From: Rugalucina vietnamica
Taxonomy: Eukaryota > Mollusca > Bivalvia > Lucinida > Lucinidae
Reading direction: 5' to 3'
Assembly (NCBI GenBank): GCA_964017185.1
Contig: OZ024870.1
Coordinates: 24,327,621 to 24,391,620, forward strand
Length of the DNA stretch: 64,000 nt
This document shows, one piece after another, positions 140-37,900 of the stretch. Each line of letters begins with the position of its first letter. Within the stretch, counting starts at the first letter, position 1. The notes beneath the pieces are model-generated. The model was not told the origin of the DNA and did not search any database. It saw nothing but the letters and a program-made list of their open reading frames with translations. The translations under genes and the position numbers were made by a program.

Positions 140-374
140 GAGCCGCATCGTGAGAAAACCGGTCTTCGGGGTTTCCGACCAGGTCCGACATAAACCGGGC
201 TGTACAGTCTCAGAAGCAGGCTAGAAGCTTGACATTTCGGATTTAAGTAGAAGAGGAATTGTACTATCCGAGTAGCGAAAACAAAGGCGCTGATCAGCTT
301 CGCAGTTACTGCGAAGCTAATCTGTGCCTTTGTTTTCGCATAGGCAAAAATCCGGTTTTCTCACGATGCGGCTC
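140..374 (+). mobile_element. Family A foldback MITE, copy 1
   Basis: The outer inverted repeats GAGCCGCATCGTGAGAAAAC match at both ends. The inner palindrome, centred near 311, has arms TGATCAGCTTCGCAG / CTGCGAAGCTAATC. In the orientation I call plus, the palindrome lies close to the right end. It is non-coding. Confidence 0.9.
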
Positions 375-376
375 AT

Positions 377-1282: not shown

Positions 1283-1285
1283 ATT

Positions 1286-1519
1286 GATCCGCCACGTGGG
1301 AAAACCAACAATCTGTCTAGGCGAAAACAAAGGCGCAGATCAGCTTCGCAGTAACTGCGAAGCCGATCAGCACCTTTGTTTTCGCTACTCGGATAGTACA
1401 GTTCCTCTTGTACTTAAATCCGAAATTTCGAGATCCTAGCTCTTTTCTGTGACTGTACAGGTCGGTTTATGTCGGACCTGGTCAAAAACCACACTGTTGG
1501 TTTTCCCACGAGGCGGCTC
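1286..1519 (-). mobile_element. Family A foldback MITE, copy 2, between 107-bp direct repeats
   Basis: It has the outer repeats and the inner palindrome (centre near 1352, TTCGCAGTAACTGCGAA). It is flanked by 1176-1282 and 1521-1627, which are direct copies of each other. Confidence 0.9.
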
Positions 1520-1520
1520 A

Positions 1521-1784: not shown

Positions 1785-4350
1785 AACATGCAACTATTGT
1801 CAGTGCCTATGCATCCACGATGACAAATGCAGATGAGGTTAAGGACAAGTTCTATTATGACTTAGACGACGTTATTTCTGCAACACCCCGTTCAGACAAG
1901 TTATCCAATGCCAGAGTTGGTAAGACCACCAGACCTGGGAAGGAGTTATAGGTCCAGAAGGTGTTGGAAAGTGCAACAGCAATGGTCTCTTGCTTCTAAG
2001 GAAATGTGCTGAACATGGTCTTCTATTAACCAACACAGTCGTTCGTCTACCAAACAGACATAAAACATCCTGGATGCAACCCCATTCCAAACACTGGCAT
2101 CTCATAGACTATGTCATAGTGCGGAGAACAGACAGGCAGGATGTCAGAGTAACAAAGACTATGTGTGGTGCAGACTGCTGGACAGATCATAGACTGGTTG
2201 TCAGCAAACTCAACCTAAGAATCCAGCCTGCGAGGAGACCTCAAGGCAAGAAAGCTCCTAAGCTGGATCAAGACAGCATGAGACAAGCTTTCTTAACGGA
2301 CATATGCAACCAACTGGATGCAGTCAAGCTCCGTTCAGAGAACCCCGAAGAAAACTGGAAAATTTTCCATAAAACAATTCATTTTTCAGCTGCTACTACG
2401 TTAGGACATCCATCTCGCAATCATCAAGACTGGTTTGATGAGAATGATGACGAAATTCAGAGGCTTCTTGAAGAAAAACACCGATTGCACAAGGCATATC
2501 AAGATGATACTAGCTCAGTATCAAAGAAAGCAGCCTACAGTAACATTTGTAAGACTTCCAGACCAAGCTTAGGGACATGCAAGATTCCTGGCTGAGGAAG
2601 AAAATTCAGTCTCTCGCGGACAGAAAGGACATGAAGAAATTTCATGATACACTGAAAACCATTTATGGCCCAACGAGTTCTGGAACCACCACATTGCTCA
2701 GTGCAGATGGAAGCACTCTTCTCACGGGTAAAGAGGCTGTCTTGAAAAGGTGGACAGAACATTTCAATAGTGTGCTGAATCGACCATGATGCAATCGACA
2801 GACTTCCACGGATAGAGTGCAATGTTCTGTTAGATGAATTTCCAACCGTCATAGAAACAAGAAAAGCAGTGCAACAACTGGCATCTGGCAAAGCTCCTAG
2901 TGCAGATGCAAATCCTGCAGAGGTTTATAAGGCCGGGGGCTACCCAAGGCAGAAAAACTGACAGTTGTTTCACTGTATGTGGAGGAAGGAGGCTATCCCA
3001 CAAGAATTTAAGGATGCATCCATAATCCACCTATACAAGCGGAAAGGAAAATCCACAAGTCTGTGACAACCACAGAGGCATCTCCCTCCTATGCATACTA
3101 GCAAAAATTTTGTTGAACCGCCTGGATGTTCATCTGAATCAGAAGGGACTTATCCCAGAAAGTCAATGTGGATTCAGAAAAGACAGAGGGACAGTTGACA
3201 TGACCTTCACAGCAAGACAGCTTCAGGAGAAATGCCAAGAACAGAACGTAGATCTATGCATGATATTTGTCGACCTCCCCAAAGCTTTTGACACAGTTAG
3301 TCGTGATGGACTCTGGAAAATCATGGCCAAGTTTGGCTGTCCACCCAGATTCATAGCAATGGTGCGGCAATTTCATGATGGCATGCAAGCACGTGTGCAA
3401 AATGATGGAGCGTTCTCTGAACCATTTGAGGTAACGAATGGAGTCAAACAGGGCTGTGTTATGGCACCAACACTGTTCATCATGATGTTTTCTGCCATGC
3501 TCATGGATGCATTTCAGGACAGTGACACTGGTTTTCCAATCAGGTACCGTTTTTTATGGTAATATATTCAACCTTAGAAGGTTGCAAGCCAAAACTAAGG
3601 TGCAGACTGATGTGCTAGATGAGCTCCTGTATGCAGATGATATGGATAAGAATGCCAGCTCAGAGGCAAAAATGCAAAGATCCATAGATCAAGTCTCACA
3701 GTCATGTGATAACTATGATCTCACAATCGGCACAAAAGGGCCTGGAAAACCGTACCATGAACCAGCCATCACTGTGAATGGACAAAAACTAAAAGGTGTT
3801 GATAAATTCACCTACCTGGGAAGCACTCTTTCAAGAGCAGTGCACATTGATGATGGGGAGGTCACTACCAGAATTGCAAAAGCCAGTGTGGCATTTGGAA
3901 GACTCCGTGCAAATGTCTGAGAGCGAAATGAAATCAAGCTTGGCACAAAGCTGAAAGTCTACATGGCTGTGGTACTGCCAATCCTCTTGTATGCATGTGA
4001 GACATGGATAGTATTACCAGCGTCATGCAAAGAGACTTAACCATTTCCACTTAAGCTGTTTGAGAAAGCTGTTAAAATCAAGTGGCAAGACAAGATTCCA
4101 GACACGAAAGTCCTGAAGAAAGCAGGGATGGAAAGCATGCATACTGTCTTAAAGCTAGCACAGCTTAGGTGGACTGGCCATGTTATAAGAATGCCTGATG
4201 AGCGACTTCCAAAGAAAGTCTTCTATGGAGAACTACAAGAGGCCAGAAGAAACGCTACAAAGACACCCTCAAAGCCTCTCTGAAGGATTTCGACATACCA
4301 ATTGGGTCTTGGGAACAGACGGCACAGGAGCGACCAAAGTGGCCAAATAA
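1785..4350 (+). mobile_element. Broken LINE (non-LTR retrotransposon), 5'-truncated
   Basis: The endonuclease C-terminal part runs 1785-2270; the GDFN-type catalytic motif is lost by a deletion near 1905-1915. A connector follows, then reverse transcriptase over about 2575-3920 with ESQCGFRKDRGT, DLPKAFDT, NGVKQGCVMAPTLF and LYADDMDKN in several frames. The C-terminal stretch RWTGHVIRMPDERLP lies near 4170. Many frameshifts show it is dead. The clade is uncertain (RTE- or L2-like). Confidence 0.88.
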
Positions 4351-4554
4351 ATCTTTAGACCCGGAACTCTTCCATCATTTAAAATGCAGTCATTTTTTTT
4401 ATCATTAAGATGGGATTTTTCAATTTCAATGACGTGACCTATCAATTTTCGTTCTTTTAAAAGTCTACAATACACATTGTATTGAGTAAAACGCTATTAT
4501 CAAAATGCTGTTCTTTGCAAGTTTTTACACTATAGCGTTATAATTTTTACAAAT

Positions 4555-4784
4555 GAGCCTGTGCGTGAGAAAACCAACAATTTGGGTTCCGACCAGGTCC
4601 GACACAAACCGGTCTGTACAGTCACTGAAGATGATTAGAGGCATGAAATTTTGGATTTAGAAAGTAGAGGGATTGTTCTGTGTAGCGAAAACAAAGGCGC
4701 TGATCAGCTTCGCAGTTACTGCGAAGCTGATCTGCGCCTTTGTTTTCGCCTATGCAGATTGTTGGTTTTCCCATGCAGTGGCTC
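4555..4784 (+). mobile_element. Family A foldback MITE, copy 3
   Basis: It is a full element with the inner palindrome centred near 4717. A 4-bp direct repeat AAAT flanks it (4551-4554 and 4785-4788). Confidence 0.88.
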
Positions 4785-5594
4785 AAATAATACTTAACTT
4801 ATCTGCTGTGTGTTTGTGGTTTTTCTCTTTAATTGCTTTAATAACGGCGAGACAGGAATCATTTTTCAATAGGACCATAACAAAATCTGCCTTATACACA
4901 TTGATAACTCGACAACCACCATGCATAGGCTCTCTACTAAACTTGCATTGTCAAGACAACCGTTACAAGTCATTCAAGAAAATTCAGAAACGTCAACTGA
5001 CGTAAGAAAAGCCCAGAGAGTATGTCTTACTGTGTGTGGTTTACTGGGGCTTCCTATGTATATCAGTGTTGCGTTTGTGTTTGACACAAGTTTGACAGCA
5101 CACATTTAAAATGCTAATTGTGTCATTATACAATTACAAATACATTTAACTCCTTTCTGACAGCTAAGCAAAACATTTCAAATCACAGAAAAAAAAAACT
5201 TCTTCGTGTACATGTAGATACGGGATGTCAACATGACAGTTGGACCAGGAAACGTATGTACCATGCAGCTACCTATGCTGTTGGAGTGGCATTTGGCATT
5301 TCCGAATGTGATCCACATTTTTTTTAGAGAGAATGTAAAAAATAACTATTTTACGCCTACACATTTCACCAGTATTTATTTCCCAAGGGTATTAAAATAT
5401 AAATCTTTTTCACAATTCACTGATCTTGTGAAAATTTATGAGGTATAGGCTATGAATGATAAAATTTCATACATCATAAGAGAAAAAAAAAAGTCATAAA
5501 AACACGTGGCTGCGGTCAATGTGTCTGCGGTCAGTGGTGTGTACTTTAACGGTATTTCAGCTCTCCCATGACTTGACAAAAATGAAATGAAAAA

Positions 5595-7637: not shown

Positions 7638-7673
<36 letters not shown>

Positions 7674-10404: not shown

Positions 10405-10625
10405 ATAAAGACTGGTAAAAACCGGATTTTTGCCTAATCAAAAACAAAGGCATAGACCAGCTTCACAGTAACTGCGAAGCTGGTCAGCGCCTTTGTTTTC
10501 GCAACATGGATAGTACAACTCCTATACTTTCTAAATCCATCTAGCCATCTTATGTAGCTGCACAGTTTGGTTTGTATCAGACCTTGTCGGAAACCCCGAA
10601 GACTGGTTTTCTTGCACCACAGCTC
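10405..10625 (-). mobile_element. Family A foldback MITE, copy 4 (diverged)
   Basis: The palindrome GACCAGCTTCACAG / CTGCGAAGCTGGTC is imperfect, and the left outer repeat is degraded. Confidence 0.78.
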
Positions 10626-11397
10626 ATATTTTAGTTGTACAATGAAGAAATGAAATTGAGTCATGAGAAATAAAAACATGTACTATAAAAGAAGTAATTG
10701 AGAATTCAATGTTTCTTTGACATGACCCTTTATAACAATATTTGCTTAACCGGTCATGAAATGTACTTATTCTGTAGGTACTAAAACTGCACCTGGTGTC
10801 AAAAACTGTCTGAAATATTTGGCTTCATATAATTTTATTATAGTAAACTCTAACATTTATTTATAACACAATGATCAAATTGTAATAAGGACCTTGAAAA
10901 AATATTCAATCATGAATTTTGCATAAGTTGCAAAGCTTGTAGATGGGTACAGCATACACATGTACCTTACAAGTGACAACAGACCATTTTATATACAAGA
11001 ATCGTTATTCATTACCAGTCTTATTTACATTGCTAAAAGGATGATCATCCAATGCAAATTAAATCATTGTGTTTTTCATTTCCCTAAAAACATGTTGACA
11101 ATCGAAATCATTGTTTTTGGCAAACATAAACACTTTTTTTCTGATTGTTTGTTCATGATTGTTGAATATCCCTGTGTGTAACTGCTTAACATCTACAAAA
11201 TCTGAATGAACTACATATATCTACTAACAACAAAATTCAAGTGTAGAATATCAAAAAGCAACCACTTTTCTACAAACTCTTGATAACATCAAAATACCAA
11301 ACCTGATAAATAAAGAAACTGTCAACCAGATCTAAATGAGTGTCAAAAAGTACAAAATGTGTGAATTCTTATCTTTATGGCTTTAACTTTAGCAATT

Positions 11398-11631
11398 GAG
11401 CCGCCTCATGGGAAAACCAACAATCTGCATAGGCGAAAACAAAGGTGCAGATCAGCTTCGCGGTAACTGCAAAGCTGATCAGCGCCTTTGCTTTCGCTAC
11501 TCGGATAGTACAATTCCTCTTCTACTTAAATCCGAAATTTCAAGCTTTTAGCTCTTTTCTGTGCTTGTACAGGCCGGTTTGTGTCGGACCTGTTCGGAAA
11601 CCACATTGTTGTTTTTTGCACGAGGTGGCTC
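11398..11631 (-). mobile_element. Family A foldback MITE, copy 5
   Basis: It is a full element with an AATT direct repeat on both sides and the palindrome centred near 11466. Confidence 0.88.
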
Positions 11632-12206
11632 AATTTTGTAGTGTGAACAAGTATAGGGTTGCCATTTATATAATGAAGTTTTGGTAAAAAGGCAACTTGC
11701 TACCTGGTGTGCTAATGGTCACCATGCATTCAACAATAAGTTTGTTGTAACATTAAAAATCAAATGAAAAATTAACATATACAGAGTACATGTGAGTTTG
11801 TTGAAGCATATATATAATCATCAGTAAATTTTGAAATAAATATCTGTTATGCAAAAAAATCTTTCTCAACAATACCCCAAGAGACCCACCGGTACAACAG
11901 CTATGACTTTTGCTAAGTAACATTTATGCTTGGCAACACTCTAGGTAATTTCGAACAAATTGGCTGTTAAGACCAAACCTTTGTGGTAATGACTGTCAAT
12001 TTGTGATCTTAAGGTGTTTTGGTGTCATTTAAAAGCAATTTAACAGTTGAAAAGTGTCTTTCAAGCTACTACAATACATAATGTCTCCTTGTGTATTCTT
12101 CTACAAATTGCACTATTAACAATTGAGCCTGATAACCAATTTGAGGACTTTGGGCCTTAACAAGGCATAACTCATACAAGCCTGGCATCCTTTTTGTGGG
12201 ACATAG

Positions 12207-12561: not shown

Positions 12562-12797
12562 AAGCCGCCTCGTGGGAAAACCAACAATGTGGTTTCCGAA
12601 CAGGTCCGACACTTAAACCGGCCTGTACAAGCACAGAAAAGAGCTAGAAGCTTGAAATTTGGGATTTAAAAAGAAGAGGAATTGTAGTATCCGTGTAGCG
12701 AAAACAAAGACGCTGATCAGCTTCGCGGTTACCGCGAAGCTGATCTGCGTCTTTGTTTTCGCCTATGCAGATTGTTGGTTTTCCCACGAGGCGGCTC
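12562..12797 (+). mobile_element. Family A foldback MITE, copy 6
   Basis: It is a full element with an ATTT direct repeat on both sides. The palindrome centre is GCGGTTACCGC, the G/C variant of the stem. Confidence 0.9.
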
Positions 12798-13844
12798 ATT
12801 TCATGATCTGGCTAAAATATTTTCCACTATAAAGGCTGTCTAAAATCAGGTTCAAAAGTTTTTTTTAATACATATTTTTGGTTCATTGAGCTAATGTGAT
12901 GGAATTTACATAAATGTAAATGGAGTAAAATATTTTAAGTCAAGCAAAACTAAACTGAGGGCGAACTTTGAAGATGTAATGATATATACATGGTGTGCTA
13001 AGTGTATACATTTTCTGTTATGGTCATTTTGATTGCTTGCTCTGGTGACTCTTGTGTGACACTTCAAATGGATCGAAGTTCTTACCATTACATATACTTC
13101 ACAGAAGATCTCCAGATGCTCTTAGCAGTTATAATTTGCCATTATGTCAGCAAATCATTCATTAGGTCATTCATAGGAACCATCATCAATGAAAAAGTTG
13201 CAAAACTGACCACACTGACCAAGTATATTGTACCCCTTGATAGTTCACTGACCCCTTGCAATCTGAATTGCATCTTGAGAAAATCTACCTACAGTTTCCA
13301 TTTTGGTTGAAAAACCTGGTTGCGCATTATCAAAAGACGACTCTGAGTCCTAAGTGATAGATTTAAGAAGATGGATTATATCATGGTGTCCACAATGTGT
13401 AACAAATGGAAACAATCAATATTTTTGCATAATCATAATATGCATTTTTCTTGATGTGGCTCATATCAATGACAAAATATTAGATATATTAGGTTTATGA
13501 GAACTTTAAAGATGAGCATATGACTAATTTTTATTTATTTGATGGCAGACCACCCATTCAAAAATATGGTTTATGAATATTGATAAAATTTTCTCATTTT
13601 CATATTCTTGAGAAAGTTTTTATCAGCTTAATGTTTTTGTTGAAAACTCAAAAAAATTTACAAACTCCTCAACACAAATTATGTTGATTTCTAAGACCCT
13701 CATTTCATTTTTTCTCTTTTATCAAGCTCTGGCACATTTACGTTATGACCTAAGCCTTTGATATGATGGGACATAGTGAGTTCAATTTTGGGGAAACTTT
13801 TACTTTCAATGCTGTCAAAGTGATTTTTGCTATGAGGCTCAAAT

Positions 13845-14076
13845 GCGGCAGCATGGGAAAACCAACAATCTGCATAGGCGAAAACAAAGGTGCAGATCAG
13901 CTTCGCAGTTACTGCGAAGCTGATCAGCGCCTTTGTTTTCGCTACACGGATAGTACAATTCCTCTACTTTCTAAATCCAAAATTTCCAGCCTCTAACCAT
14001 CTTCTGTGACTGTACAGCCCGGTTTGTGTCGGACCTGGTCGGAACCCAAATTGTTGGTTTTCTCACGCACAGACCC
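13845..14076 (-). mobile_element. Family A foldback MITE, copy 7
   Basis: It has a perfect palindrome near 13913 (GCTTCGCAG / CTGCGAAGC). The bases just left (GAGGCTCAAAT) look like the end of another copy, so two copies may once have abutted. Confidence 0.82.
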
Positions 14077-14355: not shown

Positions 14356-14651
14356 CAAAGAAGATATGAAATAGTTAAAGAATGTGAACTAAATATTGGT
14401 AATCTGCCATTAGGAAGCTTGTCCAGATACAGGGTAGTACAGGTAACTCAGTGACAGTGCTGCATATGCACTTAAATATGTTGGTTGCTTGATTATTAAA
14501 GTGTTTAATGTTCCACCGAACCTTTTATTACATGTATATGGAGATAGGTCTTTGATTTGAAGTCTCATTCTAATGACTGCTGAAACCCGTTTGTCATTGA
14601 CCTATAAAAATCGATCAATCTATCAATTTTATGATGATGTGGAAACTATAT

Positions 14652-14889
14652 GAGCCACTGCATAAGAAAACCAACAATCTGCATGTGCTAAAACAAAGGC
14701 GCAGATCAGCTGTGCAGTAACTGCACAGCTGATCAGTCTTTATTTTTGCTTCACAGATAGTACAATTCCTCTTCTATTTATATCCAAAAAAATCCTTTCA
14801 AGCTTCTAGCCTGCTTCTATGACTGTACAGATCAGTTTGTGTCAGATCTGGTCTGAAACCTGAAGACCGGTTTTCTCGTGTCACGGCTC
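14652..14889 (-). mobile_element. Family A foldback MITE, copy 8 (TGTGC stem variant)
   Basis: The inner palindrome reads CAGCTGTGCAGTAACTGC / ACAGCTG. Compared with copy 1, both arms changed in a matched way (TTCGC/GCGAA to TGTGC/GCACA). Confidence 0.86.
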
Positions 14890-14989
14890 AGATGTTTTCT
14901 CAACAGAAACTCAGTTTGTAGTCCAGTACTGAATAAGGATGCTCCACTGAGAGAGGCTTTATAGGAAATCAATTCATAGAGCTCTACAT

Positions 14990-17047: not shown

Positions 17048-17232
17048 TACATGTGCTTACTATATTTGCTGTATGAACTAGTACATGCGTACTAGAATTT
17101 TGTCATAAAATTCATATTAATATTATAGCATGTTTTTAATAAGACACAAAACAGAAGGGAGGTGTGTGGGGGGGGCCTTTTTTGCAGATCGCAAGAGACC
17201 CTGAGAACAAAATATTATCATTACTTATAAAT

Positions 17233-17450
17233 GAGCCAGCTCGTGAGAAAACCAGCAATGTGGTTTCTGAACAGGTCTGACACAAATCAAGCTGTACAGT
17301 CACAGAAGCAGGTTAGAAGCTTTAAGAAGAGGAAGTGTACTATCTGTGTAGCGAAAACAAAGGCGCTGATCAGCTTCGCAGTTACCGTGAAGCTGATCTG
17401 CGTCTTTGTTTTCACATATGCAGATTGTTGGGTTTCTCATGAGGCAGCTC
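17233..17450 (+). mobile_element. Family A foldback MITE, copy 9
   Basis: It has outer repeats and the palindrome near 17380; one arm has CGTGAAGC against CTTCGCAG, so the pairing is slightly broken. Confidence 0.82.
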
Positions 17451-18100
17451 AAGTACTACTAAAGTATATGATCAAAAACATGTGCATCCACTTTTACAGT
17501 TTTCTATCCTATAGGCCTTATACATATTTTAAAGGTTCCCCTTGGGCTATTATCCATTTAACAACCATTGAAGTTGAACTAAATTGTTTAAAAATGCCCT
17601 GCCTATGTACTTTACTGAATTAAAATCACTATAGAGAAAGATACATCAAGCAGAATAGTAAATCTTCTTTTAAAAGCCAGCTCATATATAACATTCTCTG
17701 AGGTACATATTTTCAAATATGCATATGCAAAAACATCCACTGTTGTGTTAATACATGTAACATTCTGTATGCAAAAAATATTTGAACAATATGGTGACAG
17801 TGCTGCTGGGCTGATCACAGTAATCTAAATGTTTTTGGCTCAATTTTCAAGTCACTGTTTTGTCAGACTCTTTGCTAATATCATACTATTTCAACTGTGA
17901 ACATCAATTTAGTTCTGAAGAGGAGTAGTCAAAGGATCCAGTCAGTGGGTTGCTTTAGTACAAATAAACATAAAGGCAAATGACCATCATGGATATTTGG
18001 TTACAAACTCTCAAAGTCATTATGCTTTTGAGGACACCAAATTGTATAGGGGTTGTGGAACCAACCAACCCACAAAATTGTTTCACAAGCACAAACTTTA

Positions 18101-20013: not shown

Positions 20014-20377
20014 GTGAAGCATCTATAGGAAGGGGGAACCAATGTGTAATAAGAAATCCAGGTCACATGACCAAGATGGCCGCCATGTCCATATATGGTA
20101 AAAACTCTTCAAAAAATCTTCTTCTCCCGAACCGGTGGATCGATTTCAACGAAACTTAGCATGAAGCATTGATGGCTCAAGCACTACAATGTATATATAA
20201 ATCATGACCCTGTGATGACCTTGGCCTATTTTACGGCAAGGTCAACATAGGTCGCCAATGCATTTGAATGGGGAAAACTTTTAAAATGTCATTTAAAGTA
20301 AAAGTCTTGCAGGAAATGGGCAGTTAATGGGCAATCAATACGAATTCGCTTACATGTAGGTGTCTTTGAACACATCT

Positions 20378-20623
20378 GAGCCTTCGCATGAGAAAACCAA
20401 CAATTTGGGTTTCCAGCCAGGTCCAACACAGACCGGCCTGTACTGTCACATAAAAACGCTAGAAGCTTGAAACTTTGGATATAAGTAGCAGAGGAATGGT
20501 ACTATCCGTGTAGCAAAAATAAAGGCGCTGAACAGCTGTGCAGTAACATCAGCTGTGCAGTAACTGCACAGCTGATCTGCGCCTTTGTTTTCGCATATGC
20601 AAATTGTTGGTTCTGGTGTGGCC
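20378..20623 (+). mobile_element. Family A foldback MITE, copy 10 (duplicated stem, right end lost)
   Basis: It is the TGTGC stem variant. One arm carries a direct duplication (CAGCTGTGCAGTAACAT then CAGCTGTGCAGTAACTG). The right outer repeat is degraded. Confidence 0.8.
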
Positions 20624-22525: not shown

Positions 22526-22574
22526 GGCCACCACCCTCCTTATAATTTTTCCTCATTTCACATCTTTTAAACCT

Positions 22575-22903: not shown

Positions 22904-25900
22904 CTGGTGAAAAAATAAGCTTCTGCTATGCATCAGTCAGATATTTTACCCGGAAAAGAAGTCAATGAGATACTGAGGAAATAAGACAAATCCCCATTCT
23001 CAGGAATTACAAAGCATTTCAAGTGTTGAGTAAATTAGATAATCTAATTAAATTGTGCAATAAAATTGATGGTCTGACCAGGGTTTTTTACCCATGGCTG
23101 GGTAATTAGGCCCTTGATTTTAAAAATTGTCTAATTCCTCAAAGGTATCCCAGTGCTCCACTTCTGTGGCAAAACATAGACAGGTGCATAATTTAGAACC
23201 AAACTGATGATAATGGTGATGATGATGATAATGATGTTTCTGTGAATGTGGCTGAAAATTCAGATTTGCAGGATCATGTCTACATCAGGAAAACATGTCT
23301 GTGCAATGAATACCCCCTTAAGCCCCACTTTTATATACTAAAACTGGGGTATGCAGGGGTATACCTATTTTTCTTATTTTTGCTCCAAAACATAGATTGT
23401 GGTTCTAACGTGTACCCACAATCTACGTTTTGAGCAAAAGTAAGAAAAATATAAAAAAAATTTCAACTGAAAATTTTCATTTTTACAATAAAAAAAAATC
23501 TGTATATTGGATGGGCGCGTTTTCGTAATGAGATGACATAAGTGATGATAATGACAAGGCTGATGATAATAATGCTATATTCTGGGTCTGTGCCATCGCT
23601 ACAGGTAAACTGATTTACAAACTCTCGTTCACTGCAACATTGTTGAAACTTTGTAAAATGGGAGGGGGGTGGGAGGGGGCCAGGGTGCATTTGCATGGTT
23701 ACAAATGACAGTTGCATTTCTTATCCTTTTTAAATGTATTAATTTCTGAACATTTTTTCTTGTTTTAGTTAGTTAACTTACTCTTCTTGAAGCTCTGCTG
23801 TACTGACTCATCTTTAGTAAGTAGCCTCTCTGTGACATTGTACATTAATTCTCGACACTTGTCAATCACCTCTCTGCCACACCAACCATCACGCTCTGTA
23901 CATCTCGTCTCCTGAAAAATATTACCCTTCTCTCAGATCTTCATGTAGAGCAATGGTTTACATGTAAATTACATGTAGAAGCAGCAAATTTACATGTATA
24001 CCACATACATGACACTGAACATTAATTCCCGAAATTTGTCAATCACCTCTCTCCCACACCAACCAGCGCACACTCCGTATGCCCAGTTTCCTGAAACAAA
24101 TCAATTAATGTTTCATTATGCCTAGAAGATAATGTACCTTTTTATATCAGAGTTCTTGTGGTTGTGCCGTGTGGCGGCCCTAAAAAGTCTCCCAAATAAG
24201 ATTGCTCTTATTTTTCCAATCCTCAGGGATTGCTTGCAATCAGTTTGTTTGATTTCCAAATATAATGTTGGGTTAAAGACGCTTTTAAGTGAGGGCCTTT
24301 CGGAACCTGAATTTTATGGTGACTTAGTTTACAAATTTAAGAAACTTATAGGAATTAATGATTTTTCTTTTCAGTTCAGAAAAATCATAACACGTTACAG
24401 ACGTATAGGTTATAACTTGAATGTTATGCGACAGTCTGCATGCTTAGTTTTTAACCCAATCATGGTTGATAACTATGCTGCCTTCTTTAATTGCAAGCCG
24501 GTGGGTCGGGCGTCTGACTCTATGATGGCCCCGACTTAAAGCTATTCATTTTAGTTGGTTGGGGTCGGAGCTTCTTGTCTGTTTCTTGGCCCACCGGGGT
24601 CCAAGTGGTGTTTTTCTTTTGCTCCGGAGTTAGTAGGTTATTCGGGGCCCAGGGATCTCCATCGTCGGGTAGCTTACTCAATCTGTGAGTCCTTGTTTTT
24701 GATTCATCAGGATGTTTATCATGATTTATTTGTTTGTTCTTGATGATTCATTGACTAGTTAGAGATTCACCACGAGGACCGAAGAACTTACTAAATATTA
24801 TGAACCACTGCAGAAGCTGAGGGTGAGGTTAGGATCCTGTAAAACCGGTTTAAGCCCGCCAGTAACTTTGTGTTACTGATCGTTCCAAGGCGATACTTCT
24901 GTGGTGGTTCTTTTTGTTTTATGTCTTGGTGTTTAAAATTTTTTTGTGCTGTTGGCGCCTTATTATGTTTTCATATTTTGTATTAAGTTAAGCTAACTGA
25001 GTGGCCACCTATTGGGAAAATAGCTGCTCATTCGGCTTACGATATGTTTCATGGTATAAGTACCTGATTGTTAGTTTGGTTTTTTCCCACCTCGGTTTTT
25101 GGAGTGGGAATCTCTTTCTGATTGCGCCTTTACCTGATCTTTGCCTACTTGTACCTTTTTACTCTCAATTTTCAGCAAAGACTGTGATGGTCAAAAGTTC
25201 TGCATCAAAAAGCTGGAAACATGTTTAGGACTTGCACTGAATTTAGAACCGCAACATTTACTTGTAGGTTGGGGAATAGCCAGGATTTTCACTGTACCAG
25301 TTACAATACCAGGGTGTAAGCGCACCACAGTGCCAGGACCTTTTTATGATCTCTGCCAAATGTATACACTGCAAACACCAGACTTACTTGATTATAAAAT
25401 TGAGATTCAGTGGGGTCTATATTATACAAGCAATTCAAAAATTGTCAGCTTGATGCAATTTGAGCCGCCTCGTGGGAAAACCAACAATCTGCATAGGTGA
25501 AAACAAAGACGCAGATCAGCTTCGCGGTAGCCGCGAAGCTGATCAGCACCTTTGTTTTCGCAACTCGGATAGTACAATTCCTCTTCTACTTAAATCCGAA
25601 ATTTCAAGCTTCTAGCTCTTTTCTGTGCTTGTACAGGTCGGTTTGTATCAGACCTGTTCGGAAACCACATTGTTGGTTTTCCCACGAAGCAGCTCAATTC
25701 AAAAATTGTCAGCTTGATGCAATTTCATTATTCTAAGTGCTGTCTGTATCATATTCAAATTAGCTCATAAAAGACACAGCAAACAAAATGGCCTGTTGAC
25801 CTGTGGCAACTCAAACCAGCCTGCAAATAAGTCAAGCTAGCATATGCAAGTGATTGAATTAAAAGTTCAATGTAATCAAAATGAAAGTCTATAGATAGTG

Positions 25901-28900
25901 AGCAGTCCAGGAGGAAAATCATCACAAGATCCATCAGGAACAATGAGATTGCTGGTTTTAGTCTTTCATGGGCATATGCATCATAATCATTTTGAGCCAC
26001 TACATGAGAAAACCGGTCTTTGGAATTTCTGACCAGGTCCGACACAAATCGGCCTATACACCCACAGAAGAAAGCTAGAATCTTGAAATTTTGGGCATAA
26101 GTAGAGGTGGAATGGTGCTATCCATGTAGCGAAAACAAAGGCGCTGATCAGCTACTGCACAGCTGATCTGTGCCTTTGTTTTGGCATAAGCAAAAATCTA
26201 GTTTTTCATGAAGCCGCTCAATTTATAAAATTTGTCATTCTATTCACTGTCTGTATCATATTCAAATTTTAATGTTTCACTCTGCTGAATAACCTTGCTG
26301 TCATTCATTGCAAACTTAACATTCAAAGCTACGTTAATGGCTGCAATCTACTTTCAAAATGCATGTCACATGATGTGTAACCACTAAACTACAGGCTGCA
26401 TCAGATGAAACAGAAATATAAGGTTAATCTTGAAGAATTTTTCATATTGTTGAGAGGTAAAGCATCGAATTCTTGAATCTCCCTTTGTTAAATTTGTTCC
26501 CTAATACTATGATTATGTTCGATACAATGTTCAAATTTGCCAGTTACTTTTCTTGAATGTGAAACAAAAAGGTTACTTTTGTAAATTATGGTGTTGGACA
26601 TAGATATAGAGGACTTTTTTCCACTGGATAACCCCTTACCCCCTCTGTTATGTATTCCTTGTACACTACATTGCAAAGACTTGCATAAGCCAACAGGATG
26701 CTGTGTTTCTAAGCCCTCCCCTGAATGTCACTATGACATCAGGAAAACAAGTCCGTGCAATGAATACACCCTTTATACCCAACTTTTATATGGCCCAGCA
26801 AGGGCATACAAAGATGTTGTACAGAGAATAAGAGAGGAAATCCAAATCAGAGATAATACAAACTAAAAACAATCTAATATAAAACAATGTATTAATCCAA
26901 GTGTTCATGCAGATACTGACCAAGTTTGTGAAGTATATCAGAGTTTTCATTAGTCAGAATCCAGAAAAACTTCTGGAAACTATCCAGCTCCATAAAATTT
27001 CTGTTGGAGTCATTAATGATTTGAAAAAAGCTGTTTCTGAACGCATTAAACTTTGAGCATTCCATCAAAAAGTGCTGCTCATCTTCAATTGCACCTGTAG
27101 AACATTTGGTACACAGCCTTTCTGACCTATCCAGCTTGATATTGGTCAAATAAAGTCTTGTATCTTGTATCTTGTATCTTATAGTAAAACTGGGGTATGC
27201 AGGGGTATACCTATTTTTCTTATTTTTGATCCAAAACATAGATTGTGGGTACTCGGTGAGACGGTTCTAACGTGTACCCACAATTAATGTTTTGAACAAT
27301 CATATGAAAAATATCAACTTTTTCTGGTGAAATTTTCAATTCTTTTTCAGTTTATAAAAATCTCTGTATATTGCATGGGCAAGTTTTCGTAATGGCCAGG
27401 GGTTTGGGCTCCTGGTTACAACATAATAAAAAGAATGATCCTGTTGAGAAATGGCTTGGAAAGTTGAGTCAGAAGCATAATGTCAGACTCTAATAATACC
27501 AATTTACAAATAAGCCGTGACACAAGAAAACCCGTCTTCTGGATTTCCAAACAGGTCTGACACAAATGGGCCTGAACAGTCTGAGATGAAAGTTAGAATC
27601 TTGAAATTTTGGGTAGAGGTAAAGGAGGAATTGTACTATCTAAGCAGTGAAAACAAAGGCGCTGATCAGCTGTGCAGTTACTGCACAGCTGATCTGCGCC
27701 TTTGTTTTTGCATAGGCAAAAAGTTTTCTCATGACGACAGTGAAATATACATGCATCATCATTCTTCCATATATGGCTATGTTGGAGGGACTGGCAATAC
27801 ATTAAATGCATTACATTCCTAGAAAAGCCAACAATTTATTAATGACTAATGATGGTATTTGGACAAGCATAATATGCAGTCATACTTTGCTATTTATTCA
27901 TTTTAACCACAGGATTTAGATAGACAACATAATCTGCATTAATAAAATGTGGTACTCATCAAATTTCCCTAACAGCATGTTTTGCTTACTTATAAACCAC
28001 AGATTATACATTTTGCAAGGCAGACCTCTCATTTAGCATGCCGAACAGCCCACATCTCACCAGGATTGCTTTAGGTTGTTATTTACCAATCTTGTGAACC
28101 ACAATCCATTATGTTTGGAGAGTAATCTGATCGTGAAACTTTTACCCTGTCACAAGAAGTTTGATATGCATAAAAATCAGATCGTTTCATAAAATCAGAT
28201 TGAGCTTAAGGCATTTTTGTTTATACAGGCTTGACTTAAACTGTGAAATGTATCTTTATAAGATATATGTTGTCAGCAAATTTGACATTCTGATGTACCA
28301 CCCAGGGATACAGACTGTCATTGGGTTGTCTCCCTTACAACTATTCTTGGGACAAAGGGATGCAATAACTCTGATTTCCATGATAGTAAATATTGCTTAT
28401 TGTCAAGCATTTTTCTTTGATTCTTCTTAGGGGTTTTTAGATAGTTTTAAAAACTCTATAATAATTGAGCCGCCGCATGGAAAAACAAACAATCTGCGTA
28501 GGCGAAAACAAAGGCGCAGATCAGCTTCCCACTAACTGCGAAGCTGATCACGCCTTTGTTTTCACTACACTAATAGTACAATTCCTCTACTTTCTAAATC
28601 CAAAATTTCCAGCCTCTAACCATCTTCAGTGACTGTACAGACCCCGGTTTGTGTCGGACCTGGTCAGAACCCAAATTGTTGGTTTTCTCATGCACAGGCT
28701 CAATTATATTCAATCTCTGTTTGTCAAATGCTCAGGGAAGAAAACAGAAAATGCTTCATCCTACACATACAGTGGTTTTGTGTTTTTCGGCAACATGGTG
28801 GCTGACAGACTGGAGCCAGAGGTCAGGGGACTAAGGTTTGAAACCTACCCTGTCTCCTATGTGTCCTTGAACAACACATTTTCTGTCAAATACATACTAC

Positions 28901-31900
28901 AGGCTAGCACATGAATGAAGTATCATGCATAATGAAAGAAGTATCTGTTTTGTCCAAACAAGTCTCAAAATAATTGAGCTGCCTCATGAGAAAACCAACA
29001 ATCTGCATGTGCGAAAACAAAGCCGCAGTTCAGATGTGCAGTAACTGCACAGCCGATCATCGCCTTTGTTTTCCCTGCACAGTTAGTACAATCCTTTTTC
29101 TTCTTAAATCCGAAAGTTCAAGCTGCTAGCCTGCTTCTGTAAATGTACAGCCTGATTTGTGTCAGACCTGTTTGTAAACCACATTGTTGGTTTTCTCACG
29201 AGACGGTTCGCTTCTGATGACTAGGAAGGCTGTTTAGCCCTAAAAAAAATTTGTGTTGTTTGTCCTAGCTAGAAACTCTTCCCACAGCTAATCAAAGGCA
29301 TACAAGTGCTCCTTGAGCTTTTGCCTCCCATAACCTACAGGTAAACCCCAGGGATCGGGTTTGAGCTGACTCGGTATTAGATCATATATCATTTTTATTA
29401 GCTGAGACACCTACTTTTAAAATTATTTCTTGCACACCAGACAGAAATCGCCACACTTTTTGCCTGGGTGATAAAATTGCATCTCACCCAGGTGTTCTCA
29501 CCCAGGCTAAAAAAATACGCAAAACCTTGAAATAAACCAGATTTTGGGGGTTGTTGTGCAAGAAAAAGAATCTAATATGGTGTTCTGTTCTAGATGGAAG
29601 TTTCCAACCCTCGGGATGACCGTGCTGAGCGGAACCTCGGCGGAGCCTCGGTTCCGCTCAGCAAGGTCATCCCTTGGGTTGGAAACTTCCATCTAGAACA
29701 GAACCCCATATAAGATTCTTATATTATTACCTTATTAAATCAAGACTGTTTTAGTAGTAACCTTGATATTTACTTACTAGGGCATTTTTAAAAGATCATC
29801 AAAAATTGTCTTAAATGCTTCATTACGAAAACATGCCCATGTACATGTAATATACAGATTTTTCTTGAAAATTTTCAGTAGAATTTGTTCGATATTTTTC
29901 TTATTTTTGCTCAAAACATAGATTGTGGGTATACGTAAGAACCGCCTTGCCAAGGCGGTTCTAACGAGTACCCACAATCTATGTTTTGGAGCAAAAATAA
30001 GAAAAATTGGTATACCCCTGTATATTCCAGTTTTGCTATATAGAAGTGGGGTTGAGGGGGGTATACATTACACGGACACGTTTTTCGTGATGTTAAGATC
30101 ATAGCCTACAATGTGATGTTCATCATGTGCCAAAGAAATTTGGTTTGAAGAGTCATGCCAAACCAATCAAGCATTATGAAAACTTGCCCATGCAATATAT
30201 ACTTAAGGAATTAAAATACGCAACACACTAAATTTCAACTTTTACGTATGTATTTGGCATTTTGATAAAATCCTTTTATGGAATGACCTACTAACTGCTT
30301 TTTGCACGTGATGAAATGAGAAAACATCATTTTATTGACAAAATTAACGACGAAACGTCGAAAACTATGAAAAACGCAAATTGTGACGTAAACGTCGGGG
30401 CGAAGGGGAAGATGACAAATTCTTTGCATGTGGGTTACGTGACGTCGACTTGATGATAAGCAATAAAGACTAGGATCATTGTATACTTAGGTGCCGTTCT
30501 ATGTTGCGTTAAATGTTGTTAACGGAATGCTGAGGTTTACAATAACGAAAAATGAGTAATAAACGTCATTTAAATTATTCGATTTGGGCTATTTGTACCT
30601 AAACCGTATATATCGAACCAACATACGACACGACATGCTTTTTAATCAATAGTAACGTCACAGGTACCGTAGAAATGGATCATCGGAGCGTTTGTTTTGG
30701 CGTTCGTTAAACAGAATCTCACGTTATGTAAAGGAGCGAAACGGATTATATGCTTCGAGTAACATTCGATTTACCCACTGTAATCAAACGTTTGGCAATT
30801 TATTATTTTTTAAATCAGAAAATTGGAAAAACATAATGAGAGTCTTTAAAATGCAGGATGTTGGTTTTTGACGTTATAATGGACGTTTTATGGACGTCTG
30901 AAGTACAAAGGTCATACTGTTTACTTAAATAATCATTTTATTGAATATAACGCATGCCGAAGGAAATTTTACTGGCTTTTGACTCATTTTTTCGATTGAC
31001 GTTGGTGACGTTAAACGTCCCATAATATACACAAATGTTATCAACTAATCAATGATTACATCTGCAATCATTTTTAGGGGTTTTGGAAACAAAATATTGG
31101 TATTAATTTCAAATTTGACACTACTGATCATGGTTACAGGGTGTGCTACTGTCGGTCAGTGAGGTTATGCGTACGCCATTAAGCATACGTAACCGACATT
31201 GTGACTCAACCTGTTGCAATTTGACGTTTAGATATTGTTTTCATATAAGAAGCTCATTTATACCACAGACTTGCATTACAAAGCATGTTTTTAGTAGCCC
31301 AAAGTATTTGTTGCGTTTCTTTATTCCTTAAGTATACATATGCTTACTTAAAAAATTGAAAAAATTAGATAGGTTTAATATTTTTGATCAAAAAATCGAT
31401 TGTGTGTACACGTTAGAACCGCCTCGCCCGAATGTATACACCTGCAAACCCTAGTTGTCCTATATAAAAGTGGGGATCAAAGGGGTTACAATACTTTTCA
31501 TGGACATGTCTTCCTTGTGTGAAAAGGGTAAATAAAAGATGTACAGTACATCATGACCTTACAAGGATTAAAGATTCTTAATTTCTACATTTTAAGTACC
31601 ACTGAGTTTCACATCAGAAAACCTAAGACAGCCTTACACAAGCCAGGATGTAATCTTGATTTATAGTGAAACTTTGCATCCCTGTTGTGAATTTATGATG
31701 TGTCTGACTGAAATTTTAATTTTAAATTTTATGATGTTTAAAAATGACTTTCATATCAGCAAGTCTCTTTTGAGAAAAATTATGAGACTTTAAGATGAAT
31801 GCGTCTTTTGACATACTTACGCAGTCATAAAATTCAATACACAGATTTTTATATTATTCATAAAAGTACCCTCCACTTTATTTATTGCCCCACCCACTTT

Positions 31901-34900
31901 TAAGCGATTAATTTCCGGTACCCAGCCCATTAAGTTGGTAGCTTTAACTTCAGTACCTTGAATAGGATGTGCTTTTTTGGTTTGATAAATGAACAGAATT
32001 CAGCTCTTCCTACATGAATGGTGAATCATGCAATACAGCACTGTCACGTATTTCAGACTCATGTACACAGTTTGAACAAAATAAAAACAAGGAATCATGT
32101 TCTTCTATAGGAGCAATCAGATAAGCACCTTCACTATTTTAACTATTAGGAGGTAACATGACAGGATCTACCTTATTCGAACTCAAAGCAAAATCAATGC
32201 CCCAAAACAGAAATTTCAGGATACAGACAAACTGATATTGCAAACTCAATAATGGAGCCTTATTTTATATGCACTATCATCACTAAAGTGCATCCATCTC
32301 AATCAATATAATTGAGTTGCTGCAATACAAAACAAAGTCACCTGTATCGCTGACAAGATTATGATCAGACTGTACACCCGCTCTCTCTATTCTGGGTCTG
32401 GCAGCATACTTAATATTTTCTAATGACAGTGACCAACAAGAACTGCTATGACTCTGAATGCTAGCCCGGTAGCCACTCTGACTTTTCAACTAGTTAGTAT
32501 TTTTATGGCTTTCTTAGTGTATCTCACTGCTGTAGCTCTAATGACAATAAAATAACCTTCGAACATTAGAAAGCTGGTCTTCGGGGTTCCAACCAGGTCA
32601 AACACACATTGTCCTGTACACTCACAGAAGAAGACTCTCACTCACAGAAGAAGACTCTGACTAGAATCTTGAAATTTCATATTTTAGGGAGAAGAGGGAT
32701 TGTGCTATCCGTGAAGCAAAAACAAAGTTGCAGATCAGCTGTGCAGTAACTGCACAGCTGATCTGCGGCTTTGTTTTCGCACATGCAAAAAGCCAGTTTT
32801 CTCGCATGACAACAAAATAACCTTGAAACTTGTTGAAAACTGCAACATGTCATGTTTGTGCACAACTGAAACATGCAGCAAATTACAGTATGTGCATATT
32901 TTTTTCCATTCCATTACTAAGGGCTGACAATATGACAAATTTCTGACATTTTCGTGTTGTTAGAGAAATGTTTTATTAAAACAAGAACTAATTTAAACAT
33001 TCATCAACCTGATAAGCAAAAAACACACTCGGATTAGGTAGGCTCTGTTATGGTATAAATACCTGTTTGCAAATAAATGGCATGGTAGCTTGATCGGTAA
33101 TGTGTCCCATTACTAATACAGCGAACACCAAATCAAACATGATGCCTGACACATTAATTTTCTTAAGTATTTCTCGAAGATTTGGTCATGAAAATATTTC
33201 TACGGCCATTCTACCCCTTCTGTTGAAACAAGAAGAGCATTTGTCAGTTAGTGGTGGTGAAAAACATGCACTTAATACACTAGCTGGCAGACACCTTCTT
33301 GAATGAGCCTTCCAAGAGGCAGGTGAAAATACCACCGGCAGGCTCATTCAAGAAGAGTTTGGCAAGGATAACTAACTGTCCCAACATGACCATAGTTGTT
33401 GATTGTGGATTAAAGCATAAATACAAACAAATAAAAATGGTACTCTGGGTTTCTAATTCACTTGAATGACACAATTTGACAATGTTGTGTCTTGTTCCAT
33501 CAGTTTATTGCAAAATAAGCAACTATGCCTTGACCAGACAGCTTAACTATTAATTATTAAGTGTTCTACAGAAATGAAGATAAATCGATGAATTGTTACT
33601 TATAGCTGAGCCGCCTCATGAGAAATCCAACAATCTGCATATGCGAAAACAAAGACGCAGATGAGCTTCGCAGTAACCACAAAGCTGATCAGCGCCTTTG
33701 TTTTCTCTATACAGATAGTACACTTCCTCTTCTTCCTAAATCTTCTAGCCTGCTTCTGTGATTGTAAAGCATGGTTTGTTTCGGACCTAGTCAGAACTCA
33801 AATTGTTGGTTTTCTCATGCACAGGCTCATTTTCTGAGATGAATCAAGTCTCAGGAAACGTTCTTTATAGATTCCCCAACTTTACCAACAGATTACTGCA
33901 CCGAATTTATCCAATTTCTTCTTTACATCAATTTTGAAATCATATTTGCAGTATTGAGGTTTATTTCCAGTATGTACTTGACTTTGACAAACAGTTCATT
34001 TGAGCAGCACCATGAGAGAACCAAATTTTGCCTATGCAAAAACAAAGGCGCAGATCAGCTGTGCAGTAACTGCACAGCTGATCAGCCCCTTTGTTTTCGC
34101 TACATGACTAGTACAATACCTCTTCTACCTAAATCCGAAATTCCAAGCTTTTAGTCTTTTTCAAAGACTGTACAGACCGGTTTGTGTCGGACCTGGTCGG
34201 AAACCAGAAGACCAGTTCTTTTCATGAAGTGGCTCATTTCATTGCTGACATATAGGGCCTAGGCATCTGTGACCCTATATTCATCTCAGTGATTGTGTTT
34301 AACTTACCGAGACCAGACCTGCATTAGACTGTGCTGTAGCAGTGTAAATGCTTAATTCAAACTACAGACTGCATAGTTACAGCCAGAGGTTGCAGCAAAA
34401 ATTTAAATTTTTCAGCAGGATACTTGGCTAAACCAAACTCTGTTTCTGCTTGTATGTCATTGAGCATCGAGCATGAAGGTCTTTAGTTACTCAGAATAAC
34501 AAGTCCGTACCATGAATATCCCCTTAAACCCCATGTTGATATAGAGAAACTGGAGTTTGCAGGGGTATAACTAATTTTCTTATTTTTAGTCTGAGACACA
34601 CATTGTGGGTACTCATTAGAACCGCCTCGGCCAGGCTGTTCTAACATGTTTACCTCTATGTATTTTCGAGTAAACATATAAAAAATATCAAAGTTTTTCC
34701 AATGAAATTTTCAAATTTTGCTTCTTGAAAACATCTCTTTATACTGCATGGGCAAGTTGTCGTAATTATATAACCTTGTTGTTTTTGACCTGTGACATAA
34801 ATGTTTCGAAATTGTCTGACATGAATTTTCTTTCTACTTTCTTGTAAACTGTTTTAATTTTAACAGCTACATAAACTTAGCTGTTAAAATCCTTCAAGTG

Positions 34901-37900
34901 TAGTCTAGTGGTTTTAGTTATAAGATGTAAACTTCACTCCTTGACAAATGACAATCTGAATGTAATGGATGAGTTCACAAACTAATTTGCAATTTATATC
35001 ATTGAAGGTTTTAGTGTACTTTTTCCTTATAACTAACTAACTTTTGCTCTACTTGTACCTATACATGCAATAAAATGTAGCATGTAAAATCACTGACATT
35101 AAAAATGTTTGATTATAATGGTACATGTACTTCTTTTCACTGAGTCTAAACTATCCAAATTGGTTTTAATTTGGGCTTCCTTCAGTTCAATATAGACAAT
35201 AAGCAGCCCTATAGGATTTTTTTTTCATTTGTTGCTATACATCCATGCCAACAGCTATGGTCATGTCCAGACGTTTCCTCCATTTTATGGAACTGTCAAG
35301 GCATGCCAAAATGAGCCGCCCCATGGGAAAACCAACAATCTGCATAGGCGAAAACAAAGACGCAGATCAGCTTCGCGGTAACCGCGAAGCTGATCAGCGC
35401 CTTTGTTTTCGCTACTCGGATAGTACAATTCCTCTTCTACTTAAATCCGAAATTTCAAGCTTTTAGCTCTTTTCTGTGCTTGTACAGGTCGGTTTGTGTC
35501 GGACCTGTTCGGAAACCACATTGATGGTTTTCCCACGAGGCGGCTCAAATAATGGCTACAGTGTTTGCAAAATGAACTTCCTGTCAGCAGAAAGCATTAC
35601 AAAATTATGATTAAAATACACTGCAAATGTTTTAATTTGTTGATCCTGATTCTTTTCATTGAGTTTTGATAACTGGAAATCCCTAAAATATATACTTTCC
35701 CCTACTACTTCTATAATTATCAACAGCACAAATGCTAGCTGAAAGTTCAAGGATATTTTGCTTTCCCAAGCTTTATGCACCAGTCATTTGTAACATGACT
35801 TTTCAGCTTTCAGTGCCCCGCTATAAGCCCCACCCCCAGGGAACAATCTGGAGGACAAAACTTTGCTCTTTGCCCTGCCCTTTGCAATAGAATATCTCCC
35901 TTCAATGGGTAAAAAACCTAATGTCAAATTCCCGTCATTTCCTCAGCACTGGCGGGACAATCAAAAAGTAATTGCCCCACACTTTAGCCCAGTTATACCC
36001 CACCCTTCCACATAGGTGCCAGGGAGGGGGTATAGCTGGGGGGGGGGGGGCAAAGGTTACGACTGGTGCATTAACTGCTTAAGGGGTCCTGAGAGAAAAC
36101 ATCCATTGTAAGATATTTTGAACATTCTTAAAATGATTTGAGGCCATAAAAATTTAATGCAATTTTCAGCCTTGTAGTGAAATATGTTCAACAGTATATT
36201 ACATGTGTACCATGAAGATCCTAAATTTTGCACACTCCACCTTTGGTCAACAGTAAAGGATCCGATGAAGCCGCTGTTTGATCTTGTTCATCACTAGTTA
36301 CCATTTTATAGAAACCACTCAGAATAATTTCTACTTAGAAAGGAGCTGGTCATGTTGAGAAAGCCGGATTTTTGCCAAAGTATGCGAAAACAAAGGCACA
36401 GATCAGCTGTGCAGTACCTGCAAAGCTGATCAGTGCCTTTGTTTTAGCTACTAAGATAGTACCATTTCCCTTCTTCATAAATCTGAATTTTCAAGTTTCT
36501 AGCCATTTTCTGTGACTGTACAGGTCAGTTTGAGTCGGACTTGGTCAGAAACTCTGAATACCGGTTTTCTCACTTCATGGCTCAAATATGTTAGTGTTTG
36601 TCAAAAAATTTAGGATTATATGGTAAGCAAAACATTTGAGCCGCCTCATGGGAAAACCAACAATTTGCATATGCGAAAACAAAGGCGCAGATCAGCTTCG
36701 CGGTAACCGCGAAGCTGATCAGCGCCTTTGTTTTCGCTACACGGATAGTACAATCCCTCTACTTCCTAAATATGAAATTTCATGCTTCTAGCTGTTTTCT
36801 GTTACTGCACAGCCCGGTTTGTGTCGGACCTGTTCGGAAACCACATTGTTGGTTTTCTCCTGAGGCGGCTCATTTTATACTATTAGATTCTAAGATTGTA
36901 AAGCTTGCAATTTTGTCAAGCATTTTATTGGTAAAGCATGTGCTATAAAAGGATAGTAAAATGCTTTTGAACAAGTATTTTCATTCATCTTACATTACTA
37001 CATCAGGAGAAAACCAACCCTCTTCTTGAAAACAAATACAGAAATACTAAGATGCAGGTATATGCAGCTTTTTTTTTTCTTGTGGGGGGGGGGGGGGGGG
37101 GGCTATAAAAATAATACAATCTCCACCCTGATTTCTTAATTCTAAATTCCTTTATTCAATCCTTTAGCTATTTACTGTGGTTGTACACCCATATTAATAA
37201 CTTTTATCTTTATTACCTTTACTTTTTTATTTATTTTATTTCATTTATGCATTTACAAAAAATGTTGTTGTTTTTTTCTTTACTAAACAACCATGCTGAT
37301 GAGTTGACATTGTGTGGAACCAGTCAGCAATCCTGTATGCCTAACTACATTTTTCTTGGACAGGCTTAAACCTCAGCAGATAACCAGTAGTCAGTGCTCA
37401 TCCATTCACCAGTGACAGACTGCTATCAAAATTATGACCTCACAATAATGAAAATGTGACATGCTAAATGAAACAATCCAGGCAAGAAATTTTGTCATAT
37501 GTAATCCATTGTTGCCCATCTAAGCAGATCTTAAAAAGGCTTCTTTTTCAATCAAGTCCAACACAAACAAGACTGCAACCCAGAGACTAAATGTTTTGCC
37601 AAAATACAGCTTATCTACGTATAACAATCCCAATAATACATGTAGCTTTATGTGTGCTATGGATATGGTAAGGGGGAAAACTACAAGAATTTTCTTTATG
37701 TCTTAGCTCATCAGTTATCTACATTGAATTTCTGTAAAGCATTACAACTACGGAATTTATTTTTCTCATGAAAATTATTTCGTTTATAGCATGACAGCGA
37801 ATGAACAGGAACTTTGTCAGAGAAACACTCAAAAAGAATTTGAGCCACCTCGTGGAAAAACCAACAATGTGGTTTCCGAACAGGTCCGACACAAACCGGT

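Follow-up and report, generated by a model that had tools for sequence, protein, structure and literature searches.

The 64-kb window analyzed here, a stretch of contig OZ024870.1 of the bivalve Rugalucina vietnamica, carries 24 near-full copies, plus fragments, of a short repeat that we call family A. A full element contains a hairpin, and the type-defining bases in the arms of this hairpin differ between copies in a matched fashion. On balance, we favor the reading that a few paired stem states were inherited and passed from element to element in short blocks that include both arms, with little repair in place. The elements look like mosaics: the stem core holds together, and so do the two ends. 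Once a copy has inserted, its arms change nearly independently of each other, apart from a slight additional tendency toward paired double hits, and in-place arm copying is at that stage a minor contributor at most.

Architecture and Abundance of Family A

A family A element is ∼236 bp long (195-247 bp among 47 copies) and comprises inverted ends of ∼31 bp, an unpaired middle of ∼105 bp, and an off-center hairpin of 31 pairs, one of these T.T, centered on the middle base of GTTAC. The inverted ends begin TGAGCCGCC..GAAAACC.. and occupy positions 0-31 and 204-235 of the element consensus; the terminal arms of the three copies examined were 30-34 nt long and 84-97% complementary. The inner part of the terminal arms occurs in two types, N (CCAACAAT) and F (CCGGTC).

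With the ends fixed at GAGC/GCTC (or AAGC), target duplications could be scored in 39 of 70 copies. The duplication is 4 bp long and of the form A..T. The flanks agreed exactly over 4 bp in 23 of the 39, over 2 bp in 10, and over 1 bp in one, with no other length from 3 to 8 bp seen; the left flank had A as its first base in 34 and T as its last base in 37. Terminal inverted repeats, a target duplication of fixed length, a short homogeneous length, and a high copy number are features of miniature inverted-repeat transposable elements (MITEs), and family A is a MITE, a nonautonomous cut-and-paste transposon. Pfam gave no match in three open reading frames (ORFs) from family A elements, and Rfam gave no match to a family A element within the window. 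An open frame resembling AKTKAQISFAVTAKLISAFVFA recurs inside element copies, for example at 36640-36945 (+); presumably, similar peptides occur among the predicted proteins of marine invertebrates. The idea that the hairpin arm derives from the terminal repeat by copying, the two having GNGAAAAC in common, was rejected because 149 of 2000 shuffles were equally good.

The genome measures 1.09 Gb in 47 contigs. A 35-place pattern with the core positions free and the flanking stem intact found 55,430 cores genome-wide, 53,237 with spacer TTA and 2,193 with TAA; such pattern counts of repeats may be lower bounds. A nucleotide search of the genome with the 236-base consensus, of a kind that passes over very common words, gave no match. 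Twenty random 10-kb stretches on nine contigs, placed within the minimum known contig extents, held 23 near-full copies in 200 kb. This suggests a copy number of the order of 100,000, with a wide error because the copies were clustered in 7 of the 20 stretches. The set of 70 copies was taken from 102 non-overlapping matches, a match being kept if it included the hairpin and some or all of the middle. From it, 66 copies entered a tree that excluded the hairpin, 56 entered a table of terminal arms, and linkage was computed at 58 common sites. Covariation was scored on 49 of 56 low-gap hairpins (46 distinct), the seven that mismatched the raw sequence after column trimming having been left out.

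Two Stem Types with Matched Arms

The initial annotation had described two stem types coexisting in the window, and both are real. The two strands of the window together contain 13 occurrences of GCTTCGCAG, where 0.18 would be expected, and 16 of GCTGTGCAG, where 0.40 would be. The types given there hold for every copy named, and copies e10 (20377) and e15 (28975) additionally have TGT/TGT at the core. A paired difference at the center, CAG/CTG against CGG/CCG, was likewise confirmed, with CGG/CCG in e06, e11, e19, and e21. The family was said to span 140..36871; it continues beyond, with copies or fragments at 37841, 38274, 61962, 62341, and 62688. The copies in the window are as follows (coordinates and strand; hairpin; core arms; other features).

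e01, 139..375 (+): hairpin 275-339; TTC/TTC; inner end type F
e02, 1285..1520 (-): hairpin 1321-1385; TTC/TTC; end type N
e03, 4554..4785 (+): hairpin 4685-4749; TTC/TTC; end type N; 32-nt arms 97% complementary
e04, 10416..10626 (-): hairpin 10438-10502; TTC/TTC; paired change at pair 18 unique to this copy; right end decayed
e05, 11397..11632 (-): hairpin 11433-11497; TTT/TTC; center CAG/CCG, unmatched
e06, 12562..12798 (+): hairpin 12698-12762; TTC/TTC; center CGG/CCG
e07, 13846..14076 (-): hairpin 13878-13942; TTC/TTC; spacer TAA
e08, 14651..14890 (-): hairpin 14687-14749; TGT/TGT; hybrid ends, left F and right N
e09, 17232..17451 (+): hairpin 17351-17415; TTC/TTC; center CAG/CCG, unmatched
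e10, 20377..20614 (+): TGT/TGT; N-type ends; hairpin core with 17-nt partial direct duplication
e11, 25461..25696 (-): hairpin 25497-25561; TTC/TTC; center CGG/CCG
e12, 25993..26220 (+): left inner arm partially deleted; right arm of TGT type
e13, 27513..27735 (+): hairpin 27647-27711; TGT/TGT; left end F (right end ambiguous)
e14, 28466..28702 (-): hairpin 28502-28565; TTC/TTC; one-sided changes
e15, 28975..29209 (-): hairpin 29011-29075; TGT/TGT; N-type ends
e16, 32567..32804 (+): hairpin 32716-32780; TGT/TGT; spacer TAA
e17, 33607..33829 (-): hairpin 33643-33707; TTT/TTC; center pair G.T
e18, 34001..34236 (-): hairpin 34036-34100; TGT/TGT
e19, 35312..35547 (-): hairpin 35348-35412; TTC/TTC; center CGG/CCG
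e20, 36356..36584 (-): hairpin 36384-36448; mixed arms TTT/TGT
e21, 36637..36872 (-): hairpin 36673-36737; TTC/TTC; center CGG/CCG
e22, 37841..38075 (+): hairpin 37976-38040; TTC/TTC; center pair G.T
e23, partial, 38274..38446 (+): left TGT arm only
e24, divergent, 61962..62200 (+): hairpin 62100-62163; TTT-like arms; center CGG/CCG
e25, partial and divergent, 62341..62463 (+)
e26, divergent, 62688..62928 (+)

The core three bases of the 70 copies were TTC/TTC in 30, TGT/TGT in 16, and TTT with TGT in two; the other 22 had arms that differed by one base or were deleted. A straight TTC/TGT hybrid was found in none of the 70. Genome-wide, 245 TTC/TGT and 358 TTT/TGT hybrid cores stand beside 9,727 TGT/TGT cores. 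Both spacer readings were common, as judged by eye, among the 100 matches listed for the TTC/TGT hybrids, which is the pattern that exchange breakpoints lying between the arms, in either sense, would give.

Covariation within the stem, with a score of 0.158, was above chance: shuffles gave 0.104, none of the 500 reaching the observed value, and controls with a slid partner gave 0.025-0.095. The matching is nevertheless incomplete, contrary to the description of the arms as always matched. The center reads CAG/CCG in e05 and e09 and contains a G.T pair in e17 and e22, and e20 has a TTT arm opposite a TGT arm. One-sided changes prevail at the remaining pairs, with 189 one-sided cells against 18 two-sided Watson-Crick cells in the 70 copies once the three type-defining pairs and the T.T position are omitted. 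The T.T mismatch itself persists in 59 of 65 copies. Its position changes about as often as the other A/T columns of the arms (0.06 against 0.065), and selection on the mismatch was rejected on this ground.

Mosaic Structure of the Elements

The stem types are not clades of the remaining element, a check that the initial annotation had proposed. On the tree, stem type needs 15 changes, where the minimum possible is 2 and shuffled labels average 22, and the well-supported branches alone force at least 5 changes for each type. With paired differences above chance and stem types that do not follow whole-element subfamilies, the outcome that the initial annotation had named as refuting its proposal was not observed. 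When the ends are considered as well (C for a TTC-like and G for a TGT-like stem), the combinations among the 70 copies were N-C-N in 28, N-G-N in 7, F-C-F in 8, and F-G-F in 9. The remaining 18 were three N/F hybrids, three F-G copies with an ambiguous right end, two F copies with a mixed stem, one copy with an ambiguous left end, and nine with a left end too gappy to type.

Linkage decays quickly within the element and then returns at the spacing of the ends. Mean r2 started at 0.30 for sites 1-2 bp apart, had dropped to 0.07 by 21-35 bp, stayed at 0.04-0.06 over 36-180 bp, and rose again to 0.19 at 181-235 bp. At 21-180 bp, 77-81% of site pairs had all four allele combinations, each in at least 3 copies. 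Specifically, the couples of the stem core reached r2 values of 0.85 (160/174), 0.61 (161/173), and 0.47 (164/170), whereas unpaired sites 11-20 bp apart averaged 0.09 with a 90th percentile of 0.21. The outer stem pairs 147/187 and 148/186 gave 0.12 and 0.04. Measured against stem type, the type-defining sites had r2 values of 0.70-1.0, and other sites within 40 bp had at most 0.24. The type-defining sites of the two arms lie ∼13 bp apart, and this closeness is sufficient to account for the linkage of the core arms.

Closeness cannot explain the joined ends. Measured against left end type, r2 was 0.65-0.73 at right-end sites 209-212, 0.77 at site 227, and 0.02-0.45 at other right-end sites, compared with 0.09-0.33 in the hairpin core and at most 0.14 at sites 32 to 148. 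The two inner end types are thus associated across ∼186 bp of shuffled sequence, although they are not fully complementary. Selection for compatible ends would be the simplest account of this association.

Fate of the Arms after Insertion

Changes private to one copy should reveal whether pairing is kept in that copy. Among 52 private hairpin states, two were at the center and 50 in the stem, and none of the 50 was complementary. The same was true of the terminal arms (0 of 33 scorable private states, with five more opposite a gap). The two arms of a hairpin matched each other hardly better than arms of different copies of the same stem type (0.883 against 0.871). These observations, the retained T.T mismatch, and an excess of paired CpG double hits of only 1.3-1.4-fold (below) argue against the original proposal that the palindrome is actively kept, as far as individual copies are concerned.

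TTC arms stand head to head within 30 bp at 70 places in the genome. All four such places that were read (L001-L004, around 1501) are direct duplications of the hairpin core, as in e10. The hairpin is thus liable to slip, though it seldom does so.

Origin of the Matched Stem States

In the scheme that we favor, the paired states would be few, namely TTC/GAA and TGT/ACA and, within TTC, a center of CAG/CTG or CGG/CCG. Each would be rare in origin, plausibly arising in a source element by one fold-back template switch or by mutation and later compensation. The paired states would then have spread through transposition, and short blocks swapped among copies or source lineages would have produced mosaic elements. 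A block bringing one stem arm would nearly always bring the other, giving matched arms on many backgrounds; because the block carries both arms, with sites ∼13 bp apart, no active repair per copy would be needed. The mosaic pattern itself is observed; the molecular route may have been ectopic gene conversion or template switching in gap repair. The initial annotation had explained the matching by selection on a hairpin, by gene conversion within the element, or by arm copying during fold-back synthesis. Its paired differences above chance stand, active upkeep in each copy is not supported, and inherited, block-exchanged states, which were not among its options, explain most of the data.

Several observations weigh against block exchange of inherited states. 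Outside the type-defining pairs, the 18 two-sided changes exceed the 8.8 found in shuffles, a level that 3 of 2000 shuffles reached. Each of four paired replacements (pairs 13, 18, 27, and 29) is unique to one copy, although the bases involved are also seen in other copies at the same columns. Some clustering of stem type on the tree is evident (15 changes against 22), as is a correlation with the right-end sites 221 (r2 0.37) and 227 (0.39). Strong linkage also occurs outside pairs, since the unpaired right-end sites 211 and 227 reach an r2 of 0.89, and F ends are unpaired at positions 24 and 25 (TT in 15 of 56 copies, CA in 13 of 55). In five comparisons, otherwise similar copies of unlike stem type differed at the core and at sites scattered elsewhere, with no donor block with clear borders, which leaves room for recurrent paired switching. 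At 25% divergence, moreover, recurrent mutation likewise lowers linkage, and the tree and linkage rest on 66-70 copies, at least 20 of the 70 coming from regions picked as dense.

The CpGs of both TTC-stem arms, each of which can be hit on either strand, provided a further control, also in part unfavorable. Genome-wide, single hits numbered 4,246 at pair 25 and 3,247 at pair 26 (7,493 together), and unpaired double hits numbered 572 over two classes, 286 each. Paired double hits exceeded the number expected for independent hits scaled by the unpaired control, with 515 against 374 at pair 25 (1.38-fold, z 5.4) and 287 against 219 at pair 26 (1.31-fold, z 3.8). The excess of ∼209 is near 3% of single hits, too small to be the main reason for the matched types. 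It may reflect arm copying, weak selection on pairing, or shared ancestry and amplified double mutants; TTT/TTT could be a transitional lineage.

A doubtful but serious alternative is that selection keeps a base-paired hairpin in propagating lineages, either as DNA (a cruciform for transposition) or as RNA, so that the paired changes are compensatory. The covariation above both shuffled and slid controls, the copy-unique paired replacements, and the strong predicted RNA folding (four hairpins of the window gave z values from -4.6 to -14.0) all accord with this. The outer hairpin arms have a mean pairwise distance of 0.123, about half the 0.241 of the middle, and the rate of private states is similar in all zones (0.009-0.0125 per base), which indicates that the arms are conserved among spreading lineages and not in dead copies. 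The hairpin, or a site in it, thus probably matters for spreading. However, one-sided cells outnumber two-sided cells by 132 to 15 in these same outer arms, a one-sided G.T at pair 11 is common to 12 copies, and the T.T position changes at an ordinary rate. Given so many one-sided changes, we lean toward sequence over pairing as the conserved feature, and a protein-binding site would fit the conservation equally well. G.T outnumbers A.C by 80 to 54 (p 0.10 against the middle); strand bias is not clear, and strand-specific RNA selection was rejected.

It is also conceivable, and we put it forward tentatively, that an arm pair, whether the ends ∼186 bp apart or the arms of the hairpin, is the unit of inheritance in an otherwise freely shuffled element, since only elements whose arms are compatible would propagate, and that fold-back copying alters arms in situ at a measurable rate amounting to a few percent of mutations. 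The incomplete complementarity of F ends and the strong linkage at unpaired sites weaken this reading and the favored one alike.

We consider it unlikely that the matching is due to fold-back template switching, in which, during replication or repair, one arm of a copy would be rewritten from the other and a mutation would thereby either acquire a partner or vanish, as happens in quasipalindrome correction. Such copying would account for the paired CpG excess, for the copy-unique paired replacements (for example, at pair 29 in L025 995-1228 and at pair 18 in e04), and for the hairpin duplications, including that of e10. The inverted spacer TAA, found on all three stem backgrounds among the 100 matches listed, also points in this direction. 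Yet none of the private stem states is complementary, the T.T mismatch is uncorrected in nearly all copies, and the CpG excess is small beside the single hits. The TAA spacer, at 4.0%, has about the frequency of C and G combined at that base (27 of the 650 matches listed, by eye), so inversion is unnecessary for most TAA. Template switching may nonetheless have created the paired states in the first place.

That the stem types are simple subfamily markers, each of single origin and tracking the whole element, is very improbable: of 37 copies whose left end is of type N, 28 are N-C-N, and there is the partial clustering on the tree, but the changes forced on the 66-copy tree contradict it, and each stem type occurs with each end type in at least 7 copies.

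A single genome with over 55,000 hairpins that are nearly identical constitutes a natural experiment on the matching of inverted repeats. The counts separate descent and block exchange from in-place arm copying, which affects no more than a few percent of mutations, and this low level is relevant to how much hairpins owe their upkeep to template switching. That end types remain associated across shuffled sequence suggests that compatible ends are selected in the spread of MITEs, which is testable.

Other Features of the Window

Outside family A, the window contains the following features.

3026-3559 (+): RVT_1 reverse transcriptase domain (E 3.5e-21), apparently a decayed long interspersed nuclear element (LINE)
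9080-10137: tandem repeats of 55-, 102-, and 110-bp period, together with shorter ones
24514-24581 (+): predicted Rfam SECIS_1 match (35.9 against a gathering score of 35), hinting at a nearby selenoprotein gene
near 48-56 kb: longer ORFs that by eye resemble the RVT_1 LINE-like region

Comparison with Known Systems

Family A resembles MITEs with internal or subterminal inverted repeats in being short, noncoding as far as tested, and present at very high copy number, and in having inverted ends, a target duplication of fixed length, and strong predicted folding. It differs from them in its off-center internal hairpin of 31 pairs, which exists in a handful of alternative matched versions found in varying combination with the ends. 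The 4-bp duplication may point to the Sola superfamily, although duplication length alone is not decisive. In Foldback elements, long terminal inverted repeats make up most of the element; family A, with terminal repeats of 30-34 nt in ∼236 bp, is not a Foldback element.

Identity with the P element was also rejected, as an 8-bp match was found in 0 of the 39 scorable copies. The P element and the zebrafish THAP9 transposon have short, widely spaced internal inverted repeats of 11-12 bp and 8-bp target duplications (PMC7776569). Family A shares with them inverted repeats internal to the terminal ones, and differs in its 4-bp A..T duplications and adjacent hairpin arms. The excerpts of the literature on MITE ends, hairpins, homogenization, superfamilies, and template switching that were at hand contain nothing recognizable as family A, and we do not claim its absence from print.

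Template switching has been reported to create and mend hairpins (PMC8794818, PMC8604942). Like the hairpins described there, family A has multi-base changes matched across the arms and possible inversion of the spacer. In contrast to them, its arms appear to be matched mostly by descent and block exchange, with in-place copying playing a minor part at most.

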